Made by a program: the position numbers and the translations under genes. DNA of 64,000 nucleotides from Armatimonadetes bacterium DC (GTDB lineage Bacteria > Armatimonadota > Fimbriimonadia > Fimbriimonadales > GBS-DC). The stretch is from positions 62,001 through 126,000 of the forward strand of contig LDYB01000014.1 in the NCBI GenBank assembly GCA_001442985.1, in the 5' to 3' direction. The stretch's first letter is position 1; every line of letters begins with the position of its first letter. Of the stretch, positions 25,363 through 62,199 are shown one piece after another. The notes beneath the pieces were generated by a model that worked only from the letters and a program-made list of their open reading frames with translations, did no database searches and was not told the origin of the DNA.

Positions 25363-26784
25363 TCAAAGCGTCGCCGCTTCGCCATAACGGAGCAAGCGAA
25401 CGCCCGCTGGCGAAATCATGCTGAGGGGCAGAAAAACCACATCGCCCTCCATCAGCGCGAGCCAGCCGAAAAGGGGTTGCCCTCTCCACTGGCGCAGGGC
25501 GACATCCAGCGGGCGTGGGTCGCTGGCGGTGTTGAAAATGAGGGCGCCTTCAGGCAGTTCTGCAAGCAAAGCCTGCTGCTGCGCAATTAGCGTCGGGAGC
25601 GTGAGCAGGGCGAGGGGCATCATCTCGCCGTTCTCGTCTGCCCACCAGGCGCGCCCCTCTGCCCACACCAGCTGGGCGGGCGCAATCAGCGCGGTGTGCT
25701 GGGGCGGGGCGAAGGGGTCGCTGGCATGCGCAATCAGTTGCATCCGTGCCTCGTGTGCCGAAGTGAGGGCGTGTCGCCTGATCTGGGGGAACAGGTCTGC
25801 GAAGCTCTGCCCCAGCGGCGCCTCTTCCAGAATCTTGAGGCGCTGGGGGGCGTAGCCAGGATAAAGCCCGACGCGCTTCGCCAGTAAAGGCTGGGAACGC
25901 GCGGGCTTGAACTCCAGCTGCGCGGGGTCGCCGAAGCGCAAATTCAGGGGCACAATCTTCATCTCGCGGTAGAGCGTGCCCGAATCTAAATCCATCAGGT
26001 GGCTGATGTCCAGCCGAAAGCCTGTGGGGGTGATGAGATTCTCATAGGCGAGTTCGGCGAGGCGGAGGTTTTCGCGCGGTTCGAGGTCTTTCTCGCGCCA
26101 TGTGCGTCCGAGCATCTCCTCGTACTGGTGTAGCGGGAGCGGGCGTCGGTCGGTGTAGTGTTCCTGCAGGGCGCGCAGGGTTAGCCAGAGGTTCGCCAGC
26201 CGCTGGGCGTAGCGGTGTTCAATCTGGGGTTCGGCGCGGTGCAGGCGTGCTTCCAGCAGGTCGGCGAGTTCGCTCACCGCCTGCGCCAGCCGCCGCGCCT
26301 TGAGCGACTCCAGATTCTGGCTGAGGGCGCGAAGCAGTTCAATCTTTTCGTGGCTGGCGCTTAACAAGCCGCCGCGCGCCTGCTCAATTGCAATCTTCAG
26401 AGTGTGCTGGACGCTCTGCTGCTGGAGATCCGTGCGCTCGACGGTCTCGCGCCTCGCACGACCGCGGGCGGCTTGGGCAGGCTGGGGCGTTTCTGCAAAA
26501 AGGCTCTCCTGAAAGCGTTCAGGCGTTTGCACCCATGCTATCAGCACAGCAATCGCATGTTTGCAGTAGGGCATACGGCGTGCGGCGGGGCAGCTACAGC
26601 GTGCTTTGGGAGGACTGGGGTCATGCAATTCAATCTGCACGGTGTAGGTACTGGAGCCGACGACCTGCGCGAAGAGGGTGTTGCCTGAACGCGCCATCTG
26701 GGTAATCGCATTACTGCCCACAATCTGCTCGGCGTTGCGGTAAGTGGGTGCGTCGCAGAGTGCTTTCACCGCGTCCAGCGTCAT
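25363..26784 (-). CDS. SWIM zinc-finger protein of a MoxR/VWA cluster
   Basis: This 473-residue protein has a SWIM zinc site near residue 60: CSCPAARRMPYCKHAIAVL (C-x-C ... C-x-H). SWIM domains bind nucleic acid or protein. The remaining 380 or so residues are helix-rich, with a final beta-rich segment, and are not recognised. The start codon overlaps the VWA stop (ATGA). It is the last gene of the block starting with moxR. SWIM proteins are repeatedly found with MoxR ATPases, VWA proteins and DUF5682 proteins in actinobacteria and cyanobacteria; a role in the same complex is inference. Confidence 0.82.
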   Translation of the reverse strand: MTLDAVKALCDAPTYRNAEQIVGSNAITQMARSGNTLFAQVVGSSTYTVQIELHDPSPPKARCSCPAARRMPYCKHAIAVLIAWVQTPERFQESLFAETPQPAQAARGRARRETVERTDLQQQSVQHTLKIAIEQARGGLLSASHEKIELLRALSQNLESLKARRLAQAVSELADLLEARLHRAEPQIEHRYAQRLANLWLTLRALQEHYTDRRPLPLHQYEEMLGRTWREKDLEPRENLRLAELAYENLITPTGFRLDISHLMDLDSGTLYREMKIVPLNLRFGDPAQLEFKPARSQPLLAKRVGLYPGYAPQRLKILEEAPLGQSFADLFPQIRRHALTSAHEARMQLIAHASDPFAPPQHTALIAPAQLVWAEGRAWWADENGEMMPLALLTLPTLIAQQQALLAELPEGALIFNTASDPRPLDVALRQWRGQPLFGWLALMEGDVVFLPLSMISPAGVRLLRYGEAATL

Positions 26785-27923
26785 GGGTTTGCCCCCTTCA
26801 GGATGGTCTCCATCACCTGCAACAGTTTGCGGGGCGTCGAGGCGAAGGTGGGGATATCCAGCGCCGCCACCTGACGGGCGAGCGTGCGGTCATAGGCGGG
26901 CTTGCCCTCTTCCAGCGCGAGCAGGCACAGCACATGCACCTTGCTCTCTTTGAGGAACCGCAGTCGCTGGAGCAACGCTTCAGGATTGCCCCCTTCGTAG
27001 AGGTCGGTAATCAGAATAAACAGGCACTTTTCGGGCTGCCGAATGAGCGTAGTTCCGTAGGCGACCGCCTGCGCAATATCGGTGCCGCCGCCCAGCTGCA
27101 GGTTGAAAAGCAGTTCCACAGGGTCCTCGTTGAGGTAATCGCTCACATCGACGACTTCGGTGCTGAACAGCACGAGGCGGGTGTCCAGCACCTTCAGCGA
27201 GGCAAAAAGCGCCGCCATCAGGCTGGCATGCACGGCGGAGTTCGCCATGCTGCCGCTCTGGTCTACCAGCACAATCACCTGCCAGTCGCGGAAGCGTTTC
27301 TCGTTCGCCCAGAAGTAGACCCGTTCAGGCACGATAGTTTTGTGTTCGGGCAGGTAGTGTTTGAGATTTTTGCGCACGGTGGTGCGCCAGTCGATGTTGC
27401 GGGCGGTGCGCAGGGGGCTATGGCGGTTGCGCTGGAGCGCCCCAATCACCGACTGGCGTACCTGATTTTCGAGTTTTTTGCGGAACTCCTCTACGACGGA
27501 GCGGATAATCTCGCGGGCGGTTTGTTTCACTTCGTCGGGCATCTGGTCGCGCAGGGCAAGCAGGGTGGAGACCAGATGGATGTTCGGCTCCAGTCGCTGG
27601 AGCAGTTCGGGCTGGAGCAACATCTGGGTCAGCCCGCGCCGCTCGAAGGCATCTTTCTGAATCATCACGAGCGTGTCGGCGTCAAAGAGCGTGCGAATCT
27701 GTTCGAGCCACTGGGGGATATAGGGGGTTGGATCTCCCGTACCGCCAGTGCGTGCGCTGTCGTACACGAACTCCAGCGCGTGGTCTAAGTCCTGGGGTCC
27801 GACACCCGTGGGAAGCATCTCCTGAAAGGCGTCAGGGCGCAGGCGGAAGTGGGGCGACTGCTGTTCGGCGGTGCGCCCCAGAATCAGCCTCCATCGGGTG
27901 AGCGATTCGTCGCGGTCATGCAT
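26781..27923 (-). CDS. VWA-domain protein partner of MoxR
   Basis: This 380-residue protein has an N-terminal helical half and a C-terminal von Willebrand A domain. The MIDAS metal site is complete: DQSGSMANS, the threonine in LGGGTDIAQA and the aspartate in LITDLYEGG. VWA proteins of this type work with MoxR AAA+ ATPases as adaptors that load or remodel target proteins. GGAGGG precedes ATG 27923, which overlaps the end of the upstream gene by eight bases. An in-frame extension to 28019 has no ribosome-binding site. It overlaps the SWIM start by four bases. Confidence 0.88.
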   Translation of the reverse strand: MHDRDESLTRWRLILGRTAEQQSPHFRLRPDAFQEMLPTGVGPQDLDHALEFVYDSARTGGTGDPTPYIPQWLEQIRTLFDADTLVMIQKDAFERRGLTQMLLQPELLQRLEPNIHLVSTLLALRDQMPDEVKQTAREIIRSVVEEFRKKLENQVRQSVIGALQRNRHSPLRTARNIDWRTTVRKNLKHYLPEHKTIVPERVYFWANEKRFRDWQVIVLVDQSGSMANSAVHASLMAALFASLKVLDTRLVLFSTEVVDVSDYLNEDPVELLFNLQLGGGTDIAQAVAYGTTLIRQPEKCLFILITDLYEGGNPEALLQRLRFLKESKVHVLCLLALEEGKPAYDRTLARQVAALDIPTFASTPRKLLQVMETILKGANP

Positions 27924-29148
27924 GGGCGTGCCCTCCCAATCGGGCGCGAATTTGCTCTGCCTGCTGCTGCAGGGCGGGGTCGGGGCTGTTGCGCCAGTGT
28001 TGAATGAGATAGTGCGCATACTCGGCGTAGCGGGGCAGCGCTTCGGGGTGCAGGTTCAGCACAATCGGGAAGAAGAGTGCATCGCCGAGGCTGTTCACCA
28101 CCCCCCACGGCAACAGCGGGCTGCGATTGCCGAAGTGGAACAGCAGGGGCGCGAGGCGGTAGTCGCGCGTGGCTTCAATATGGAGCTCCAGCGCGCGGGG
28201 CGTCAGGTGGGGCGAGTTCAGCAGCATCTCCGTCGCGCGTGGATGGGGCACGCGGGCAACCAGCTCCAGTCGGTCGCGAACCGAGCGCGCCAGCGCTTCC
28301 AGCGATTCCAACAACCATGTGAGAACGGGTGAGTCGTCGGGCAAGCACATCACCTCATGCGCATGGCGGCGCATTAACTCGCTGAAGCCCTGGCGCGTCA
28401 GCCCCGAATTCTGGAGCGCGTGGAGCAGTTCGGAATCTTCCAGTGTTTCGTGTGCGCGCTCTCTGGAGTCGGGCAGGGCGACCCCCAGTTGCATAGCGCG
28501 GCGTCGTAGCGGCATCGATTCGGGCAGGCGCTTGAGGTAGGGCTGGAGCGTGCGAATCTGCCCCTCTTCGTAGAGGTCCATCACGAGTTCGGCGAGACGA
28601 ATGCGCTGCAGGGGTGTGGTGTTAGATGCCAGCAGGCGCAGGCTCTGCAGAAACTGCGTGCCGTGTTCGCGCAGGCGTGCGCCCGCCTGCTGAGTCAGGA
28701 CGGAGTGCCCCAGCATCAGGCGCATGGGCGTCAGCGAGTCGCCCCACTTCCAGCGGTTAATCTGCTCTTCCAGCGCGGGCAGAAGCGCCGTAAGCGGCGC
28801 CGCGCCTGTCAGCAGGGCAATCAGCGGCTCATCGGGTGCGAAGTCCAAACTCAGCCAGCCCCGCGATTCGGGCAGTTTTGTCAGGGTCATTACGGGGTGT
28901 GTGCGGAGCAGCACCTGCTCACATACTTCCCAGAGGCGCACCAGCTCGTTGATCACCGCGGCGTATTCGGGTTCGTCGCTGGGCGTGGCGTTTGTGATGG
29001 CTTCAACGCTCTGCGCCAGCACTTCCAGCCCCACCGAGCGCAGGGGTTCCGCAAGCGCGGCGAGGCGGTCTAACGCGCTGGGGGTGTCCAGCCCCATCGC
29101 GAGCGTCTCACGCAAAGCCACCTGCAAATCTTCTATGAGTGCGCGCAT
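27916..29148 (-). CDS. Uncharacterised helical protein in the MoxR/VWA cluster
   Basis: I cannot assign a family. The 410 residues are almost entirely helical with many Leu and Glu/Arg heptad-like patterns, and no signal peptide, membrane segment or catalytic motif is visible. Its position is the guide: it overlaps the DUF5682 stop upstream (start ATG 29148 with GGAG before it) and the VWA start downstream. In other genomes a large helical protein (for example DUF5691) occupies a similar place. Whether this is a divergent member is not shown by the sequence. Confidence 0.7.
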   Translation of the reverse strand: MRALIEDLQVALRETLAMGLDTPSALDRLAALAEPLRSVGLEVLAQSVEAITNATPSDEPEYAAVINELVRLWEVCEQVLLRTHPVMTLTKLPESRGWLSLDFAPDEPLIALLTGAAPLTALLPALEEQINRWKWGDSLTPMRLMLGHSVLTQQAGARLREHGTQFLQSLRLLASNTTPLQRIRLAELVMDLYEEGQIRTLQPYLKRLPESMPLRRRAMQLGVALPDSRERAHETLEDSELLHALQNSGLTRQGFSELMRRHAHEVMCLPDDSPVLTWLLESLEALARSVRDRLELVARVPHPRATEMLLNSPHLTPRALELHIEATRDYRLAPLLFHFGNRSPLLPWGVVNSLGDALFFPIVLNLHPEALPRYAEYAHYLIQHWRNSPDPALQQQAEQIRARLGGHAHA

Positions 29149-31451
29149 AGCCACTCCAGTTGATGGTAGAGCGCCTCCACTTCGGTGGGGGTCAGCTCGG
29201 TGTAGACCCATTTGGGACGGTTCGGGTCGCCTGTCTCGTCCAGCCCGTAGAGGGCGGTCAGGTTCTCCGTGAGGTAGTGAATATCGTTTCGGCTGAGGCT
29301 GCTGAAGGCGCGTCGGAGCGCGGGCAGGGCGCGCAGGAAGTGGTCTTTGGGGATTGCCTGAACGAAGCTGTCCAGCCGCGTCACCATCTGGCGCGAGCGC
29401 GCCACCACGCCGGGATTTGCGTTCAGAAGCCCTTCAATAAACTGCGCGGTATGCACGATGTCGTTGCCCGGCGAGAGCATCCGCTGAGCGAGCGCGAACA
29501 GAGGCGATTCGGCGTCCTGCTCCCAGCCCAGCAGCCCCACGCCCAGCCCCTTGAGGTAGGGATGGGTACGCTCCAGCAGGGTCGTCTCGTGCAACTGGGC
29601 GAGCCAGAGCGTCTGATCCAGCGCGGGGACTCGCGCGGCGAGGTCGTGCATCAGGCGGATGGCTTTACCAATCTCGTAAGCGGTCTCGTCGCCGCAGTCG
29701 GTGCTGGCGGGCAGGTGGAGGCAGGCGCGGGCGTACATGCGCTCCATCAGGGGCTGGAACACCTCACGCTGGACGGCGCGCGCCCCGCCATATTCCACCA
29801 GCGCCGCCAGGCGATAGGTCGCCGCCGAGAGATGCAGAAAGTCGCCGTCGCGCACCGAGGCTTCCTCAAGCGCCTCCAGCGCGGTTCCATACAGTTCGGG
29901 CAGGTCGCACAGCACCGCCTCCAGCGCCGCTTTGCTGACCGTTTCGAGGTTCTCGCGCTCTTCCAGTCGGGGGCGGATGCGGTTGCGCGCCACCTCGCGG
30001 AGCGTGTTGCCGTAAATAACGGCTTCGGCTAAAGCGGTGTCGGTCAGGGGTGTCCACTGCACGCGCCAGTGTTCACGCAGGCGTCCAATCTGTTGCAGGG
30101 TCGCCGTTTCGCCCCGTCGGAACTCGGCGAAGGGGATGCCCGCCACATTCACGCGGTGCAGAAAGATGGATTGTTGCACGGCGTGCGGCTCGGCGAGGTT
30201 CAGGCGCAGGTCGGTGGGGTTGTCTTTGACGGGGATACCGAGCTGTTTCGCGAGCAGGTGAAACTCCTGATTGAGCGGGGGCACGCCGCAGTCGGGTGGC
30301 ACGCGCCCGACGCGCTCGCCAATCAGCACGCGCTGGAGCGCATGGCGCACGCGCTCCTCGCTCCCGCGCCCGAACGCGGCGACGCCCGCATCGATCACCT
30401 CGTCAAAGCCGGGCTGGCGCTTGCTCCGTAGCGCCGCCAGCGCTTTCGCCACACGGAACGCTTCAATCGCGTCCGCGTGCGAGGCGCTGTCGCCCTGCAG
30501 TTTCATCTGGTTCACCATGCGCGTCAGCGCGACGCAGGTCGCCATTTCCAGCGAGCCGAACTGCCAGAGGTCCTGATAAAATTGCGGCGCCCGGTTGCCC
30601 GCGCCGTAGCCCGACTGCTCCGACAGGCGCGGAAACGAGTAGGGAATCAGCACAAACTGGGCAGGCGGCGCGTTCAGCAACGGGTGATTGGGGTCGTAAT
30701 CTGCTTTGAAGTCGGGCTGGTCAAAGGCGGCGCTGTGGGCGGCGCCCACCACCAGCACAATCGCCTCTGGGGGAACGCCCTCTGCGATTGTATTCTCCAC
30801 CCAGCGCCACATGTGGGCGTTGCGCAACTGATCCATCTCACTGGGGGGCGATTCTGCTATCACCAGTTTGCCCCACTCGTGGAGCATGCGCAGCAGGATG
30901 GGGGTGGGCATGGCGTGCGATTCGAAAACGCTTTCCCACCATTCCTCGTGGTTGCGGAAGCCCATGCGCTGGGCGACGCGTGTCCACACGGAGGGGGTGT
31001 CGCTTGTGGCGGGGGCGCTTTCTTCGGAGTCGGCGTCGGGTTCGCGGAGCGCGGCGCGTGCTGGAATATCGCAAAACGCGGTAGGGATACCCAGCTCAGC
31101 CGCCGTGCGCAGGGCGACCAACTCGGGCGAGTAGTCGCACATCGGGTAGAAGCAGAACTGGGGGGTGAGGTTCGCGCTGGCGGTTTGCCCGCGCGTGTCG
31201 GGCTGGCGGTATGCCAGCAGCGCGAGGGGCGCTTCCGCCTCCGGGTGCGCCAGCGCAGGAATCCAGTCGTTGGCGTCGCAGGGACCCTCAATCAGCACGC
31301 GCTGGGGGCGCACGGCGCGAATCACCTCCGCCACCGCCCGCGCCAGCGCCGGCGAATGGTGGCGCACCGGCACCACATGCACCCCCCGAATGCGAACCGC
31401 CAGCGACTCTACTCTTTCAGCAGTCGCCGCGCCGACGCGATCTGACGCCAT
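29133..31451 (-). CDS. DUF5682 family protein (EreA/ChaN/TraB-like fold suspected)
   Basis: This 772-residue protein has the N-terminal signature of the family: HVVPVRHHSPALARAV, RVLIEGPCDAN, LLAYRQPD, FYPMCDYSPE and AAELGIPTAFCDIPA. The pattern (strand-HHSP, then IEGP, then a helix ending in G-x-P-x-x-x-x-D-I-P) recalls the EreA/ChaN/TraB hydrolase superfamily, in which the His and Glu residues are catalytic. This relationship is inference. The rest (residues 350-772) is mostly helical. GGGGAG lies before ATG 31451, and the gene overlaps the moxR end by 43 bases, so the two are coupled. Confidence 0.78.
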   Translation of the reverse strand: MASDRVGAATAERVESLAVRIRGVHVVPVRHHSPALARAVAEVIRAVRPQRVLIEGPCDANDWIPALAHPEAEAPLALLAYRQPDTRGQTASANLTPQFCFYPMCDYSPELVALRTAAELGIPTAFCDIPARAALREPDADSEESAPATSDTPSVWTRVAQRMGFRNHEEWWESVFESHAMPTPILLRMLHEWGKLVIAESPPSEMDQLRNAHMWRWVENTIAEGVPPEAIVLVVGAAHSAAFDQPDFKADYDPNHPLLNAPPAQFVLIPYSFPRLSEQSGYGAGNRAPQFYQDLWQFGSLEMATCVALTRMVNQMKLQGDSASHADAIEAFRVAKALAALRSKRQPGFDEVIDAGVAAFGRGSEERVRHALQRVLIGERVGRVPPDCGVPPLNQEFHLLAKQLGIPVKDNPTDLRLNLAEPHAVQQSIFLHRVNVAGIPFAEFRRGETATLQQIGRLREHWRVQWTPLTDTALAEAVIYGNTLREVARNRIRPRLEERENLETVSKAALEAVLCDLPELYGTALEALEEASVRDGDFLHLSAATYRLAALVEYGGARAVQREVFQPLMERMYARACLHLPASTDCGDETAYEIGKAIRLMHDLAARVPALDQTLWLAQLHETTLLERTHPYLKGLGVGLLGWEQDAESPLFALAQRMLSPGNDIVHTAQFIEGLLNANPGVVARSRQMVTRLDSFVQAIPKDHFLRALPALRRAFSSLSRNDIHYLTENLTALYGLDETGDPNRPKWVYTELTPTEVEALYHQLEWLCAHS

Positions 31452-32500
31452 ACTCTCCCCTCGCGTTTGCGAACCACCGTCTCAAGATACTCGCCCAGCG
31501 CGTCCAGGTCGCTTTTGTCTTCTTTGGCAATCGCGCCCACCAGCAGGTTCATCACATGTTTGCCGTCCACCGTGCCCTCGCCGAAGTAGTGGGCGAGCAG
31601 GCAGCCTCCAAACAGCACGCTCACCGCCTCGGCGGTACTCATCACGGTGGAGGGGCGCTTGATTTTCTGGGCGCCATCGAGGGTTTGCCCCTGACGCAGC
31701 TCCTGAAACACCGTAACGAGCGTTTCCACCACATCGTCGGGCAGGTCGGTGGGCAGTCCCTGCTCGCTGAGCATCTCCTGCGCCCGCTGGCGCACTATCT
31801 GCACCTCCTGCTGCAGGTCGGATAGCACGGGCAGCTCCACGAAGTTGAATCGGCGTTTGAGCGCGGAGGACATCTCGTTGACGCCGCGGTCGCGCGTGTT
31901 GGCGGTCGCGATGATATTGAACCCGCGCTGGGCGTACTCGATGCGCTCCAGCTCCGGAATTGCCATCGCCTTCTCGGAAAGGATGGAGATAAGCGCGTCC
32001 TGCACCTCGCTGGCGCAGCGGGTAACTTCTTCGAATCGGGCAATCTGCCCTTTGCGCATCGCGGTCAGGATGGGGCTGGGCACAAGCGCCCGCTCGCTGG
32101 GACCCTCCGCGATCAGCAGGGCGTAGTTCCACGAGTATTTAATCTGGTCTTCGGTGGTGCCCGCTGTGCCCTGCACGGTGAGCTGGGAGTTGCCGCAGAT
32201 GGCGGCGCTGAGGTGTTCCGAGAGCCACGATTTGGCGGTGCCCGGTTCGCCCACCAGGAGCAGGGCGCGGTCGCTGGCGAGGGTAGCAATCGCGACTTGC
32301 ACGCGCTCGCGGTCGCCCACATACTTGGGGCGAATCCCCAGCGACGAATCCCCCAGCACAAACACTTCCACCGCGCGGGGCGAGAGTTGCCATCCGGGCG
32401 GCTTGCTCCACCGATCCCACGCCTTGAGCTTTTCCAGCTCCTGCTGACAGCGCACCTCAACGGGAGCGCGAATGATGTGTGTCGTGTTCGCAGGCGTCAT
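31409..32500 (-). CDS. MoxR-family AAA+ ATPase
   Basis: This 363-residue AAA+ ATPase has Walker A GEPGTAKSW at about residue 83, a Walker B-position sequence IARFEEVTRC with glutamate where aspartate is usual, the MoxR helix insert ALISILSEKAMAIPEL, and sensor 1 IIATANTRDRG. The C-terminal lid domain follows. MoxR ATPases pair with VWA proteins to remodel targets. GGAGG precedes the ATG. The gene starts 18 bases after the mgtA stop and heads the five-gene module moxR-DUF5682-helical-VWA-SWIM. Confidence 0.9.
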   Translation of the reverse strand: MTPANTTHIIRAPVEVRCQQELEKLKAWDRWSKPPGWQLSPRAVEVFVLGDSSLGIRPKYVGDRERVQVAIATLASDRALLLVGEPGTAKSWLSEHLSAAICGNSQLTVQGTAGTTEDQIKYSWNYALLIAEGPSERALVPSPILTAMRKGQIARFEEVTRCASEVQDALISILSEKAMAIPELERIEYAQRGFNIIATANTRDRGVNEMSSALKRRFNFVELPVLSDLQQEVQIVRQRAQEMLSEQGLPTDLPDDVVETLVTVFQELRQGQTLDGAQKIKRPSTVMSTAEAVSVLFGGCLLAHYFGEGTVDGKHVMNLLVGAIAKEDKSDLDALGEYLETVVRKREGRVWRQIASARRLLKE

Positions 32501-32518: not shown

Positions 32519-35152
32519 TTAAGAATTTGCCGTAAAAGTTGTTTTCCCTGCAGGGGGTGTGGCGTGCAAATGTTCGTAAGACCAGAAGAGGCGCTTTGTT
32601 ATCTCGGCACCGCCAACATAGGCGAGCAAGATACCGCACAGGGCAATCAGAAAGAGAGGCGGCAAGGGGACAAAGCCAAGGAGTGTTCCAAGGGGGGAGT
32701 AGGGTAGCCAGAGGGTGATAATCCATACCAGCATGGAAAGCCCCAGCAACCATCGGCTGGGTAGAGACCGGAGGAAGGGGCGTCGCGTGCGCACGACAAG
32801 CACGACCATCGAGGCGGAGATAACCGATTCCACAAACCAGCCTGTGCGGAATTCAGGGGCTTGTGCATGGAGCAGCCCCAGCAAGACCCCGAAGGTCAGG
32901 TAATCAAAGATGGAACTGAGTGGACCGAACACGAGCATAAAATTCCGGAGGAGGCGGACATCCCACCGTGCAGGTTGCGCCACCTGTTCCTCGTCCACAC
33001 GATCGGTGGCAATAGCCATTTCGGGCAGATCGGTAAGCAGGTTCACGAGTAGAATCTGTTTGGGTAATAGAGGTAAGAAGGGGAGAAAGAGGGAGGCACC
33101 CGCCATGCTGAACATGTTCCCGAAGTTGGCGCTGGTCGCCATAAAGATATATTTGAGGGTGTTCACAAAGACGCGCCGCCCTTCGCGAATTCCCCCCGCC
33201 AGAACCGAGAGGTCTTTATCCAGTAGCACAATGTCCGCCGCCTCTTTGGCGACATCGGCGGCTGTGTCCACTGAAATCCCCACATCCGCGGCGTAGAGCG
33301 CAGGGGCGTCGTTAATCCCGTCGCCCAGGTAGCCCACCGTGTAGCCCGCTTTGCGCATGGCGCGTATGATACGCTCTTTGTGATGCGGTTCCACTTCCGC
33401 GAAGACATCGATCGTTTCCACCCTGCGGATCAGAGCTTCTTCGGAGAGCTGGTTAAGTGCCTGAGCGGTCATAATCCGGGGTTCCGAATAGCCCAGTTGG
33501 CGCATCAGATGGCGTGCCACGGCAGCGTGGTCGCCTGTGATGACTTTCAGCGTAACGCCGAGACGACGCAGCTGAGCCAGCGCTTCGGGAGCGGTCGGCT
33601 TCAAAGTGTCGCTGAACAAGACACACCCTATAAAAGTCATCTGGCTCTCTAACGACGCATCCAGTTTGATTTCGGCTGTGGGCAGGAATCGGACCGCGAC
33701 TCCCAGCACCCGGTAGCCTGCCTCCATCTGTTGATGAACCCATGAAACCAGCTCGCTTTGCACCTGCGAGAGGGGTACTATTTTCTCTCCGAGAAGTGCC
33801 GTATCACAGACCGCCAGAACCTGTTGGAACGCGCCTTTTGTGATTAAGACGACACGTGATGGGGCGAACTCTGGCAAACTGCCTGCGGTATTACGAGCCA
33901 ACACGCTCAGACGCTTGCGTGTGAAGTCGTAGGGAATTTCGCCGAGACGCTCCCACCCTGCCTCAAAATCACCTTCCTGCCGCTGAAGAACCTCATCAAT
34001 CGGGTTGGAAAAACCCTGCTGAAGGCGGGCGTTGACCACCGCGTAAGAAAGAACACGCGGGTCTTCGCGCCCTTGCACATCAAGCGCGGCGTGCACCTGC
34101 ATGACCCCCAGGGTGAGCGTGCCTGTCTTATCGGAGCAAAGAACATTCATGCTGCCGAGGTTTTGGATAGCCGATAACCGCTTGACCAGTGTGCGCACGC
34201 GCGCCATCTCGGATGCTCTCCGCACGAGATTGACCGTGATAATCGCAGGGAGGAGCTGAGGCGTTAACCCGACCGCCAGCGCGACCGCAAACAAAAACGA
34301 ATCGACCACGGGGCGCTTCAGGTACACATTGAACGCGAAAATCAGCAGCACCAAAATCAGCGTAACATCCAGCAGCAAGTTGCCGAATCGTCGTATACCC
34401 CGCTCGAAGTCGGTTTCTTCGGGGCGCAGCCGGAGCCTCAATGCGATCTGCCCAAACTGGGTGCGTGAGCCTGTATGCACGACCAGCATCGTCGCTTCAC
34501 CACTGGCAACATAGCTGCCCATCCAGAGCGCGTTGCCCCGCTCTGCAAGCGACGCTTCCGGAGCAGAGGGTTCGGAAGTTTTCTCCACAGGAAAACTTTC
34601 ACCTGTCAGCATTGCTTCATTCACCATCAGGTGTTGCGCCGAGACAACCACACCGTCAGCAGGAATCAGGTCTCCTGTTGTCAGATGAACGATGTCGCCG
34701 GGGACCAGTTGCGCAATCGGAATCCGGCGGAGCTGCCCGCCCCGCAGCACATTCGCCTGAACCTGAACACGCGCCAGAAGCCTTTTTAAGGCGTCCGAAG
34801 CGCTGGACTCTTGCCAGAACCCCAGAAGACCGCTCCCGATTACGATGACCCAGATAATCACTGTATCACTCCAGTCGCCCAGCATACCAGAGATGAGCGC
34901 CGCGCCGATTAAAATCAGTACAATGGGATTTGTATACTGGCGCCAGAGCATCATCAGTTTATTCGTACCGCGCGTAGCAGAGATAGTGTTGGCACCGTAG
35001 AGCGCTAGGCGGCGAGATGCCTCCGCTTCAGTTAGCCCTTCAGGGCTTGTAGACAGTTCTTCAGCGAGCCGTGTCCACGGTAAAGCCCAGAATGGCTCCG
35101 GATGCTGCGTGCTATTGTTACGGTTAGAGGAACGCGCCAGTGGAGTCATCAC
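32519..35152 (-). CDS. mgtA: Magnesium-translocating P-type ATPase (MgtA/MgtB type)
   Basis: This 877-residue type IIIB P-type ATPase imports Mg2+ across the inner membrane. Seen are the actuator motif TGESFPVEK, the phosphorylation site CSDKTGTLT (Asp of DKTGT), the hinge GDGINDAPAL, two N-terminal membrane spans in the 60-110 region and six C-terminal spans. It overlaps the L,D-transpeptidase stop by four bases. Because it sits inside an operon, there is no room for the long regulatory leader (Mg2+ riboswitch type) known from enteric mgtA. Regulation must act further upstream. Confidence 0.93.
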   Translation of the reverse strand: MMTPLARSSNRNNSTQHPEPFWALPWTRLAEELSTSPEGLTEAEASRRLALYGANTISATRGTNKLMMLWRQYTNPIVLILIGAALISGMLGDWSDTVIIWVIVIGSGLLGFWQESSASDALKRLLARVQVQANVLRGGQLRRIPIAQLVPGDIVHLTTGDLIPADGVVVSAQHLMVNEAMLTGESFPVEKTSEPSAPEASLAERGNALWMGSYVASGEATMLVVHTGSRTQFGQIALRLRLRPEETDFERGIRRFGNLLLDVTLILVLLIFAFNVYLKRPVVDSFLFAVALAVGLTPQLLPAIITVNLVRRASEMARVRTLVKRLSAIQNLGSMNVLCSDKTGTLTLGVMQVHAALDVQGREDPRVLSYAVVNARLQQGFSNPIDEVLQRQEGDFEAGWERLGEIPYDFTRKRLSVLARNTAGSLPEFAPSRVVLITKGAFQQVLAVCDTALLGEKIVPLSQVQSELVSWVHQQMEAGYRVLGVAVRFLPTAEIKLDASLESQMTFIGCVLFSDTLKPTAPEALAQLRRLGVTLKVITGDHAAVARHLMRQLGYSEPRIMTAQALNQLSEEALIRRVETIDVFAEVEPHHKERIIRAMRKAGYTVGYLGDGINDAPALYAADVGISVDTAADVAKEAADIVLLDKDLSVLAGGIREGRRVFVNTLKYIFMATSANFGNMFSMAGASLFLPFLPLLPKQILLVNLLTDLPEMAIATDRVDEEQVAQPARWDVRLLRNFMLVFGPLSSIFDYLTFGVLLGLLHAQAPEFRTGWFVESVISASMVVLVVRTRRPFLRSLPSRWLLGLSMLVWIITLWLPYSPLGTLLGFVPLPPLFLIALCGILLAYVGGAEITKRLFWSYEHLHATPPAGKTTFTANS

Positions 35153-35787
35153 GGGTAGATTTGTACTTTCGTGCCAACAGGCAGCAGCACATAGAGCAGT
35201 TCGATGTGCGCGTTATCGAGGGCGATACAGCCCAGTGTCCAGTCGCGGTGGGTGCCGCCGCCGTGAATGCCAATCGCGCCCCCCAGCGGCGTATCCCACG
35301 GGGGGCATCTGCCTTCCTGATGCGCCTGCAGAATCGCGCGATACTGAGATTCGTCAATCAGCCCCCTGAGTTTGCCTCGTTCCGCGTCGTCGGGCGCAGG
35401 GTAGCTCAAGCCGAGAAAGAGGTAGAAGCGGGGGCTGTAGTGCTTCTCGCAGACATAAAAGCTGCCTTCGGGCGTTTTGCGGTCGCCTTCGCGCTCTTTG
35501 TCGCCCTCTGGGCGGGAGCCGAGCGCAATCGGGAACTCCGCGAGGAGGCGCATCCCGTCGTAGAGGCGCAACACGCGCCGTGCCTTGTAAATTTCTACCG
35601 ATGGCTGGCGCAGCGGGAAGGGCGCGCCCTTCTGCTCGCAGAAGCGTCGCGCTTTCGCCTCCAGCGTGGACATCACGGGCGGGCGATAACTGGGAAACCA
35701 CAGGTGCCAGAGTCGCCCAAAGACGCTCAGCAGCGCGCCGCTCAAGACGAGTAGCAGAACCCCAATCCCGATGGCAACCCGACGCAT
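35149..35787 (-). CDS. L,D-transpeptidase (YkuD domain)
   Basis: This is a 212-residue envelope protein. An N-terminal membrane anchor (VAIGIGVLLLVLSGALLSVF) leads to a YkuD catalytic domain, with the active-site motif IGIHGGGTHRDWTLGCIAL containing the catalytic Cys and the conserved His. The family cross-links peptidoglycan stem peptides or attaches proteins to them, acting in the periplasm. The gene lies nine bases after guaB and overlaps mgtA, so it is in the same transcript. Confidence 0.9.
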   Translation of the reverse strand: MRRVAIGIGVLLLVLSGALLSVFGRLWHLWFPSYRPPVMSTLEAKARRFCEQKGAPFPLRQPSVEIYKARRVLRLYDGMRLLAEFPIALGSRPEGDKEREGDRKTPEGSFYVCEKHYSPRFYLFLGLSYPAPDDAERGKLRGLIDESQYRAILQAHQEGRCPPWDTPLGGAIGIHGGGTHRDWTLGCIALDNAHIELLYVLLPVGTKVQIYP

Positions 35788-35796
35788 GGGGCTTCC

Positions 35797-37251
35797 TTAC
35801 TCTTCGCCGCCTGTCCAGTAGTTGGGCGGTTCGCGCGTGATGGAAACACTGTGTGGGTGGCTCTCGCGCAGGGCGGAGTTGGTGATTCGGATGAAGCGCG
35901 CCTTTTCGCGCAGCTCTTTCAGGTTCGCGGCGCCCAGATAGCCCATTCCAGAACGCAACCCGCCCACCAGCTGGTGAATCGTTTCCGAAAGCGGACCGCG
36001 GTAGGGCACGCGCCCTTCCACGCCTTCGGGCACAATCTTGCGCGGGTCGGTCTGATAGTAGCGGTCGCTGGAGCCTTCACGCATCGCGCTCACGGAACCC
36101 ATGCCGCGGTAGACCTTGTAGGCGCGGTTGCGATAGATTTCAATCTCACCGGGCGATTCCTCGCACCCTGCCAGCAGGTTGCCGAGCATCACGGCGCTGG
36201 CGCCTGCCGCGAGCGCTTTCACAATATCGCCCGAATAGCGGATGCCGCCGTCGGCAATAATCGGCACGCCGAGTTTGTCCGCCTCTTCGGCGCATTCCAT
36301 AATGGCGGTGAGCTGGGGCACGCCGACGCCCGCCACCACGCGCGTGGTACAGATGGAGCCTGCGCCCAGCCCCACCCGGATGGCTTCTGCGCCCGCCTCT
36401 ACCAGTGCGCGCACGCCCTCGCGTGTGGCGACATTCCCCCCAATCACGGGCACATCGGGCAAAGCGCGCCGAATCGCCCGCACTGCCTGAAGCACGCCCT
36501 CCGAGTGCCCGTGTGCGGAGTCCACCACGATAAAGTCCACGCCTGCGTCGGCGAGCGCTTTTGCCCGCTCCACAGGCTCCCGCAAGGGACCCACCGCCGC
36601 GCCCACCACAAGGCGTCCTTTCTCGTCTTTGGTGGCGTGCGGATGCTGGCGAATCTTGAGCAGGTCTTTAATCGTAATCAGCCCGCGCAGCTTGCCCTCT
36701 GAATCGACAATCGGGAGCTTCTCTATTTTATATTTTTGCAGGATTTGTTCCGCCTCTTCGAGCGTGGTGCCGACGGGCGCGGTAATCAGATTCTCGCTGG
36801 TCATCACTTCGCGGATGGGGCGATCGTAGTTCGTTTCGAACCGAATGTCGCGATTGGTGAGAATGCCGACGAGATTGCCTTCCGAGTCGGTGATAGGCAC
36901 GCCCGAGATGTGGTAGCGTTCCATCAGCGCCAGCGCGTCGCGCACCGTGTGGTCGGGCGAGAGGTAAATCGGGTCCCAGATGACCCCGTGTTCGCTGCGT
37001 TTGACGCGATCCACCTCCATCGCCTGGCGTTCGATGGGCATATTGCGATGGATGACGCCGACGCCGCCTTCGCGAGCCAGCGCAATCGCCATGCGCGATT
37101 CGGTCACGGTGTCCATCGGCGAGCTCACAATCGGGATGCGCAGACGAATGTGGCGCACCAGCGTGGTGGAAGTGTCTACCTGGTCGGGGAGAACCGCCGA
37201 GTAGTTGGGCACGAGCAACACATCGTCAAAGCTCAGGGCTTCGGTCAGCAT
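35797..37251 (-). CDS. guaB: IMP dehydrogenase
   Basis: This enzyme converts IMP to XMP with NAD+, the committed step of GMP synthesis (484 residues). The N-terminal barrel half is followed by two CBS domains (about residues 92-205: [39 protein letters not shown]). The catalytic Cys loop is [18 protein letters not shown], and the phosphate-binding segment and flap are intact (MGSVSAM). AAGGAGG lies before the ATG. A TACAAT on the minus strand near 37273 is a plausible -10. This gene heads the 11.9-kb block running to the SWIM gene. Confidence 0.96.
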
Positions 37252-61593: not shown

Positions 61594-62199
61594 TTACGGA
61601 AATAACCTTACCAGCCAGTGGGCATCGGTGCGTGCCATCTCGGTAAAGCGCACACCGATTGCCCACTGCCCGCTGCTCAGTTCCCGCGCGTAGCGCACTT
61701 CTGCCTTCGCCCGCACGGGTTGCTCCGCATTCAACAGCGAAAACGACAACTCCACCACAGACCCCACCGCCAGCGCCTGCGGCACGATCAGGCGCATCCC
61801 GCTCCGACTGATGTTCACACCCCGCGCCTGCAGTGCTTCTGGCTCGTCGGAGTCGGCAGACTCTGCGGGTTTGATTGGGGTCAGAACCACGGGCAGGTTG
61901 ACAGGATAGCGTCTGTTCCGTCGCCGATCTAAGCGTTTGGGAGGCGAAACGATTTGCAGGTTCAAAACGGTCCCATCGATATAACGCACTTGCGTCGTGA
62001 GTTCGTAGGCGGCTTCTGCAGAGTTGATTGTAACCAGCAGGGAAGCTCCTTCGCGGAGTGCGCGGAGCGCTTCTCCCGTGTCCAGGCGCACCACCAGCCC
62101 CTCGCGAGAAGCATTCAAGAGCGTGCCCTCATGACATGTCTGTGTGTTGGGCAAGCGTGCCGAAATTCGGATTGCCTGTGTTGCTGTGCTGGCTTCCAT
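61594..62199 (-). CDS. PilZ-domain protein, YcgR-like
   Basis: This 201-residue protein has a YcgR-N-like beta domain (residues 1-88) followed by a PilZ domain with both c-di-GMP binding motifs: RxxxR in LDRRRNRRYPVNLP and (D/N)-x-S-x-x-G in VNISRSGMRL. It should bind cyclic di-GMP and modulate motility, adhesion or secretion. AGAGGTGG precedes the ATG. It begins downstream of the terminator of the convergently oriented neighbour, so it forms its own transcript. Confidence 0.9.
   Translation of the reverse strand: MEASTATQAIRISARLPNTQTCHEGTLLNASREGLVVRLDTGEALRALREGASLLVTINSAEAAYELTTQVRYIDGTVLNLQIVSPPKRLDRRRNRRYPVNLPVVLTPIKPAESADSDEPEALQARGVNISRSGMRLIVPQALAVGSVVELSFSLLNAEQPVRAKAEVRYARELSSGQWAIGVRFTEMARTDAHWLVRLFP

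Follow-up and report, generated by a model that had tools for sequence, protein, structure and literature searches.

We investigated a five-gene module in a 64,000-nucleotide stretch of contig LDYB01000014.1 from Armatimonadetes bacterium DC (assembly GCA_001442985.1, contig positions 62,001 to 126,000), which as a whole is referred to here as the window. The module occupies positions 25363-32500 of the minus strand, on which all module features given below lie. It consists of genes for a MoxR-family AAA+ ATPase of the YehL type (31409..32500; 363 residues), a DUF5682 protein of the YehM family (29133..31451; 772 residues), an all-helical and lineage-specific protein that we call HEL (27916..29148; 410 residues), a CoxE-like VWA protein of the YehP family (26781..27923), and a YehQ-like SWIM protein (25363..26784; 473 residues). 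The five overlapping open reading frames (ORFs) that a preceding sequence-only reading had reported here were all found to be open, and its overlaps of 4 to 43 bases and its 410-residue helical protein were both matched when the starts were set by homology, at Met22 of the longest ORF for HEL (29148) and at Met33 for VWA (27923). As read from the sequence, the overlaps are 43 bp between MoxR and DUF5682, 16 bp between DUF5682 and HEL, 8 bp between HEL and VWA, and 4 bp between VWA and SWIM. Pfam recognized four of the proteins (AAA_5/MoxR, 6e-41; DUF5682 PF18934, 2.6e-135; VWA_CoxE, 7e-49; SWIM, 3e-7, with a profile match over about the whole SWIM protein), and the Pfam search gave no significant match for HEL.

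The gene set is widely distributed. A DUF5682 scan of one genome per species returned at least 547 loci, and the best 80, which are the most window-like rather than a random sample, were annotated with profiles built in this analysis; 58 of these were well flanked. The order SWIM-DUF5691-MoxR-DUF5682-VWA was found in 49 of the 58 (42 plain, 4 with a downstream DUF4132 gene, 2 with SWIM and DUF5691 fused, and 1 with DUF5691 split) and in at least eight phyla, i.e., Pseudomonadota, Actinomycetota, Bacteroidota, Cyanobacteriota, Chloroflexota, Planctomycetota, Deinococcota, and Armatimonadota. With the window MoxR gene as query, blastn reached E. coli SMS-3-5, which carries the five genes in this usual order (ECSMS35_RS17715-17735); the window module likewise has five genes and shares four of the five families, although its order differs and HEL stands instead of DUF5691. 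In E. coli K-12, yehL, yehM, yehP, and yehQ encode MoxR-DUF5682-VWA-SWIM beside DUF4132 genes (yehH/yehI) that precede yehL. These are the same four families, in an order that matches the window module if HEL is disregarded, and in the window, too, the DUF5682, VWA, and SWIM genes are linked to MoxR. The window proteins are 46% (MoxR), 38% (VWA), and 27% (DUF5682) identical to their K-12 counterparts; the 46-48% full-length identity of MoxR to E. coli YehL-type proteins (48% to the SMS-3-5 homologue) is pairwise only, with no tree against the RavA, MRP, and CGN groups, and a "YehL subfamily" of MoxR has been named (PMC3893208). Unlike the window, K-12 has neither HEL nor DUF5691, its SWIM protein is longer (614 residues), and a quick tree places its DUF5682 outside the window clade, at a position that is unsure for the K-12 type because of long branches. 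That tree unites the window, locus L058, and the sister genus g5 in one clade, adjoined by a Myxococcota module (L060) of the order MoxR-DUF5682-VWA-SWIM. Among the best 80 loci, the order MoxR-DUF5682-HEL-VWA recurred only on L058, whose contig ends after VWA and whose DUF5682 is 59% identical to that of the window. Conservation of the five-gene module outside this genome therefore held for the gene set and failed for this particular order, and the window module is a rare variant of a widespread operon, with HEL in the place of DUF5691. Two further observations concern the distribution: L058 is filed as Candidatus Thermoflexus (Chloroflexota) yet carries an Armatimonadota-type HEL module, by horizontal transfer or mis-binning, and diverged modules of the K-12 yehLMPQ type occur in Armatimonadota (L169:4285-10026 in G211; L168:6977-11616 in G190), G211 carrying one in addition to a usual DUF5691-type module.

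The slot that distinguishes the window module was then compared across 291 Armatimonadota genomes. DUF5691 matches were found in 23 genomes, all within the 35 that have DUF5682 (p ~1e-25, relatedness not corrected) and none in the family f1; within the window module there was no Pfam match to DUF5691, nor was there a DUF5691 profile match in genome G000. Convincing HEL homologues occur only in f1 and on L058, and the clear HEL matches among the 291 genomes are limited to f1, with three other genomes giving marginal matches (E ~1e-3) to one helical stretch. HEL and DUF5691 are thus mutually exclusive among these genomes, the pattern that two proteins occupying one slot would give. The two align roughly collinearly over ~190 residues by hhalign, at a probability (4-15%) that is not significant and does not demonstrate homology. 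AlphaFold2 gave a poor model of HEL (predicted local distance difference test score, pLDDT, 56), owing to only two usable sequences. Kinship of HEL with the longer YehQ-type SWIM proteins was also considered and found no support on comparison.

Within f1, the module genes are inherited together. In genus g5 the operon is split into three distant loci, and the single contig of G004 has MoxR-DUF5682 at 2.027 Mb, the VWA-SWIM pair at 2.673 Mb, and HEL at 2.718 Mb; which genes adjoin VWA-SWIM varies between g5 species. Among the 11 f1 genomes that are at least 90% complete, seven have DUF5682 (with MoxR), VWA, HEL, and SWIM, and four lack DUF5682, VWA, HEL, and SWIM altogether. The discordant genomes (G011, G013, and G017) are 69-84% complete. 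Since the genes are scattered and yet all present or all absent, physical linkage cannot explain this pattern, which represents fewer independent events than genomes owing to relatedness. Two elements were seen near the dispersed G004 genes: a clustered regularly interspaced short palindromic repeat (CRISPR) array of ~25 copies of the 37-nt repeat GTTTCAATTAGCACCCACCCTTGGGGGTGAATGCTAC (L173:1-1922; G004:C1, ~2.712-2.714 Mb), with the orphan HEL gene ~4 kb away, and a candidate HEPN-MNT toxin-antitoxin-like pair, judged from sequence, directly upstream of VWA-SWIM (L048:6684-7444).

The motifs of the ATPase and its putative partner are intact. The MoxR Walker A motif GEPGTAKS (residues 84-91; 32228..32251) conforms to the pattern GxPGTAK[ST] seen in 62 of 65 relatives, and the Walker B-type motif R155-F-E-E158, followed by TR (32027..32038), has Glu-Glu replacing the usual Asp-Glu, with both E157 and E158 conserved in 100% of 66 aligned relatives. 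In the VWA protein, the metal-ion-dependent adhesion site was confirmed as complete: DQSGS, at residues 253-257 of the longest ORF (27249..27263), is accompanied by T313 and D339, and D253, S255, and S257 are 100% conserved across the aligned family. MoxR-VWA pairs are known as remodelling pairs. Such remodelling is documented for NorQD, which drives metal insertion: its VWA protein inserts a finger into the pore of MoxR, and a linker is remodelled by the activity (PMC13036017). The SWIM zinc ligands C63-x-C65-x8-C74-x-H76 (26557..26598) are present in every one of 67 aligned relatives. Four Armatimonadota modules (G046 and G152-G154), however, encode a SWIM-family protein with no zinc finger, while the rest of that gene and the other four genes are kept (on separate contigs in G153), so the finger is not indispensable, which weakens the earlier idea of the SWIM protein as a nucleic-acid-binding sensor. 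Three loci of genus g25 in the Fimbriimonadales (L021:12673-13566, L171:9645-10562, and L172:5919-6842) encode SWIM-family proteins of ~300 residues that wholly lack the finger and begin near profile position 150, in operons that retain MoxR, DUF5682, and VWA along with a DUF5691 that is shortened or diverged, and another Armatimonadota locus (L170:8777-9820 in G091) has the SWIM-family gene of the module with no DUF5682 match, possibly as part of a decaying module.

We next consider DUF5682, for which the sequence-only reading had suggested an EreA/ChaN/TraB-like hydrolase fold. AlphaFold2, run with 63 sequences, gave a confident model (mean pLDDT 89.3; predicted template modelling score 0.84) with a seven-strand alpha/beta domain at ~residues 18-290 (30582..31400), in which the strands alternate with helices and pLDDT is mostly above 90, followed by ~480 mostly helical residues. 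When this N-terminal domain was compared by hhalign with TraB, EreA, and ChaN families gathered from public genomes, the probabilities were 63% for TraB (E 7e-5), 11% for ChaN, and 0.5% for EreA, against at most 0.7% for fourteen unrelated families, 1.2% for twelve column-shuffled profiles, and 1.6% for a reversed profile; on the same scale, accepted pairs within the superfamily reach 64-75% (ChaN-TraB) and 9-39% (EreA-TraB). The profile similarity to superfamily members thus exceeds that to decoys. The alignments also place the motifs in register, DUF5682 GIRHH with TraB GTxH, Glu55 with the TraB Glu, and REAxMR...GAWH with ChaN LWDxxMA...GxxH, EreA RDxHMA, and TraB RNxxxA...GAxH. Invariant in all 72 of 72 DUF5682 sequences are R30, H31, H32, E55, S108-P109-E110, D128, E177, R210, M214, H239, and Y282. 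Among them, His31-His32 (31356..31361) form the first GxxH motif (GIRHH in most relatives, PVRHH here), Glu55 (31287..31289) ends strand 2, and Arg210 (30822-30824) stands 29 residues before His239 (30735..30737) of the second GxxH motif (GAAH here, GAWH in most), in the ChaN/TraB motif register. The superfamily active site comprises two His, two Glu (2His/2Glu), and a basic residue, Arg (PMC6254334). The two His, one Glu, and the Arg of this set are present in DUF5682, in register and invariant, and the distance from Arg to the last His is 29 residues in both DUF5682 and the enzyme of that study. On the predicted structure, together with the profile comparison and the invariant catalytic-type residues, the N-terminal domain of DUF5682 is best placed in the TIKI/TraB superfamily, which supports the earlier suggestion. 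It shares with TIKI, TraB, EreA, and ChaN the GxxH motifs, the Glu after strand 2, the Arg and Met before the second GxxH, and a predicted alpha/beta core, and differs from them in the additional ~480-residue helical scaffold and in one Glu of the 2His/2Glu set that is not in place. A search of the PDB with DUF5682 and SWIM sequence profiles gave no meaningful match, and no paper naming DUF5682 was found in the literature searched. The family does appear in phage resources: PHROG phrog_30700, of unknown function, matches residues 26-519 of the window DUF5682 (29133-31451) at 1.6e-39, and MT835988.1, an unannotated 14-kb phage record, encodes a DUF5682 protein, by phage carriage or bacterial contamination.

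Starting from the observed gene set, co-inheritance, domain assignment, and intact motifs, we propose that the five proteins form one remodelling machine coupled to a TIKI/TraB-like hydrolase, serving cell maintenance or quality control rather than phage defence, a proposal that we consider about evenly balanced for and against. The MoxR ring and its VWA partner would be the ATP-driven remodeller, a step drawn by analogy with NorQD, while DUF5682 would be the enzymatic subunit, with its N-terminal hydrolase domain carried on the long helical scaffold. The helical protein (HEL here, DUF5691 elsewhere) and SWIM may serve as scaffold or adaptor subunits that position the client. A cellular client protein or complex, once remodelled, would become accessible for DUF5682 to cleave, as part of its maturation or of quality control during some stress. 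We infer the peptide or protein nature of the DUF5682 substrate, as well as the maintenance role. Like the NorQ/NorD, RavA/ViaA, and CbbQO pairs, the window module joins a MoxR ATPase to a VWA partner; to our knowledge, none of these pairs has a TIKI/TraB, SWIM, or DUF5691/HEL partner.

Several points weigh against this proposal. Complex formation and DUF5682 activity are both things that we infer, and MoxR-VWA pairs such as NorQD work, as far as we know, without a hydrolase. Foldseek with the whole DUF5682 chain, in which the helical part dominates the matches, returned no match at E <= 0.001 in PDB or BFVD; in BFVD only a TraB-family protein stands out by probability (0.98), but at E 0.042. 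In addition, DUF5682 does not have the second Glu of the active site where RRSP has it, two residues ahead of the first His, and may therefore catalyse differently or not at all, although E110 or D128 might substitute for that Glu. This missing Glu, together with the precedent of PMT, a TIKI-fold protein without the catalytic residues (PMC6254334), also favours the view that DUF5682 is a non-catalytic scaffold, in which the fold is kept as a binding surface and the module is purely a chaperone. We regard that as unlikely, since 72 sequences from many phyla all keep the two His, Glu55, Glu110, Asp128, Arg210, and His239, which would be unusual for a dead enzyme.

Similar gene sets have been proposed to act in conflict or quality control, as the sequence-only reading noted, and a rival explanation is that the module is a counter-invader (conflict) system, in which MoxR-VWA would restrain DUF5682 until phage infection or DNA damage and DUF5682 would then cleave a host or phage target. 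The MoxR-vWA ternary conflict systems described by Kaur et al. 2020 (PMC7159879) resemble the window module in combining MoxR, VWA, and further components, and two of their four classes, the FtsH and beta-propeller systems, share its P-loop variant GXXXTAKS; YehL and SWIM go unmentioned in that study. The window MoxR also has sub-threshold similarity to Pfam bpMoxR, and the module is patchy in Armatimonadota (DUF5682 in 35 of 291 genomes). In contrast to the ternary systems, however, the window has no VMAP, iSTAND, FtsH, or beta-propeller component, none of which gave a Pfam match above threshold in its five proteins, and it has no variable effectors. In the PADLOC search there was no full-length component match to a described anti-phage system, only partial ones, to mad8 (3e-5) and, at the SWIM N-terminus, to the candidate PDC-S62 (7.6e-17), the latter covering the zinc-finger region only and matching one of 47 SWIM relatives. 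Across the 58 loci the parts list is fixed, gene lengths are uniform, and variable effector domains are absent, while the flanks, considered with no matched control flanks, are mostly housekeeping genes with scattered, single matches to defence families, mostly generic ABC ATPases. Moreover, yehM is core in E. coli, with matches in 5,284 of 5,426 genomes (~97%), and the family is seldom carried by mobile elements, with 31 plasmids among 72,556 and one phage record among 50,697. A conflict role therefore appears improbable, and maintenance is placed ahead of phage defence because of the mostly housekeeping flanks, the fixed parts list, the core status in E. coli, and the near absence from phages. 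The genome-reduced E. coli DGF-298 lacks yehL-yehQ (PMC10652928), so these genes are dispensable in the laboratory; in the literature searched, mentions of the yeh genes were confined to lists, deletions, or mutant strains.

A further explanation is that the module is a metallo-enzyme maturation chaperone of the NorQD/CoxDE kind, with MoxR-VWA inserting or repairing a metal cofactor, molybdenum being a candidate, and DUF5682 processing the client. This would fit the CoxE-like character of the window VWA, the metal insertion driven by NorQD (PMC13036017), and the yehM mutations that arose in copper-exposed E. coli (PMC12409786). The molybdenum link comes from DUF4132/MolR, which has been tentatively tied to molybdate (PMC8533742), although molybdate-metabolism genes were unchanged in the same study; E. 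coli K-12 (yehH/yehI) and four Chitinophagaceae loci have a DUF4132 gene beside the module. DUF4132 is also absent from most loci, and no metallo-enzyme or client gene recurs in the flanks of the 58 loci, such that we give this explanation a low probability. The four Chitinophagaceae loci (L074, L077, L092, and L096; ~13.4-16.5 kb) have the DUF4132 (YehI/MolR-like) gene directly after VWA, much as in K-12 the DUF4132 genes come before yehL, and DUF4132 is a possible sixth component of the module.

Upstream of the module in the window, genes for a P-type cation ATPase, an L,D-transpeptidase, and an IMP dehydrogenase lie in tight tandem on the minus strand (32519-37251), with the P-type ATPase gene ending 18 bp upstream of MoxR. 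This run may be co-transcribed with MoxR, so that the gene run could begin before MoxR, and a promoter and terminator scan gave a signal close to that of shuffled sequences. The P-type ATPase is treated as an incidental neighbour because it is not common to the other loci that were looked at.

Overall, the host is a hot-spring-type bacterium carrying a rearranged version of a widespread operon, a gene set whose presence in almost all E. coli and in many phyla is unexplained. The superfamily placement of DUF5682 and the co-inheritance of the genes would make one machine out of five genes annotated as "unknown", with specific residues that can be mutated in a laboratory strain. Tentatively, and well short of an even chance, the module may exemplify a general bacterial remodel-and-cut machine, spread over many phyla and almost all E. 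coli, whose MoxR-VWA motor passes substrates to a TIKI/TraB-type hydrolase; its ATP-dependent proteolysis would be unlike that of Clp, Lon, FtsH, or the proteasome. Should DUF5682 indeed cut what MoxR-VWA remodels, the module would represent a new form of ATP-dependent proteolysis.

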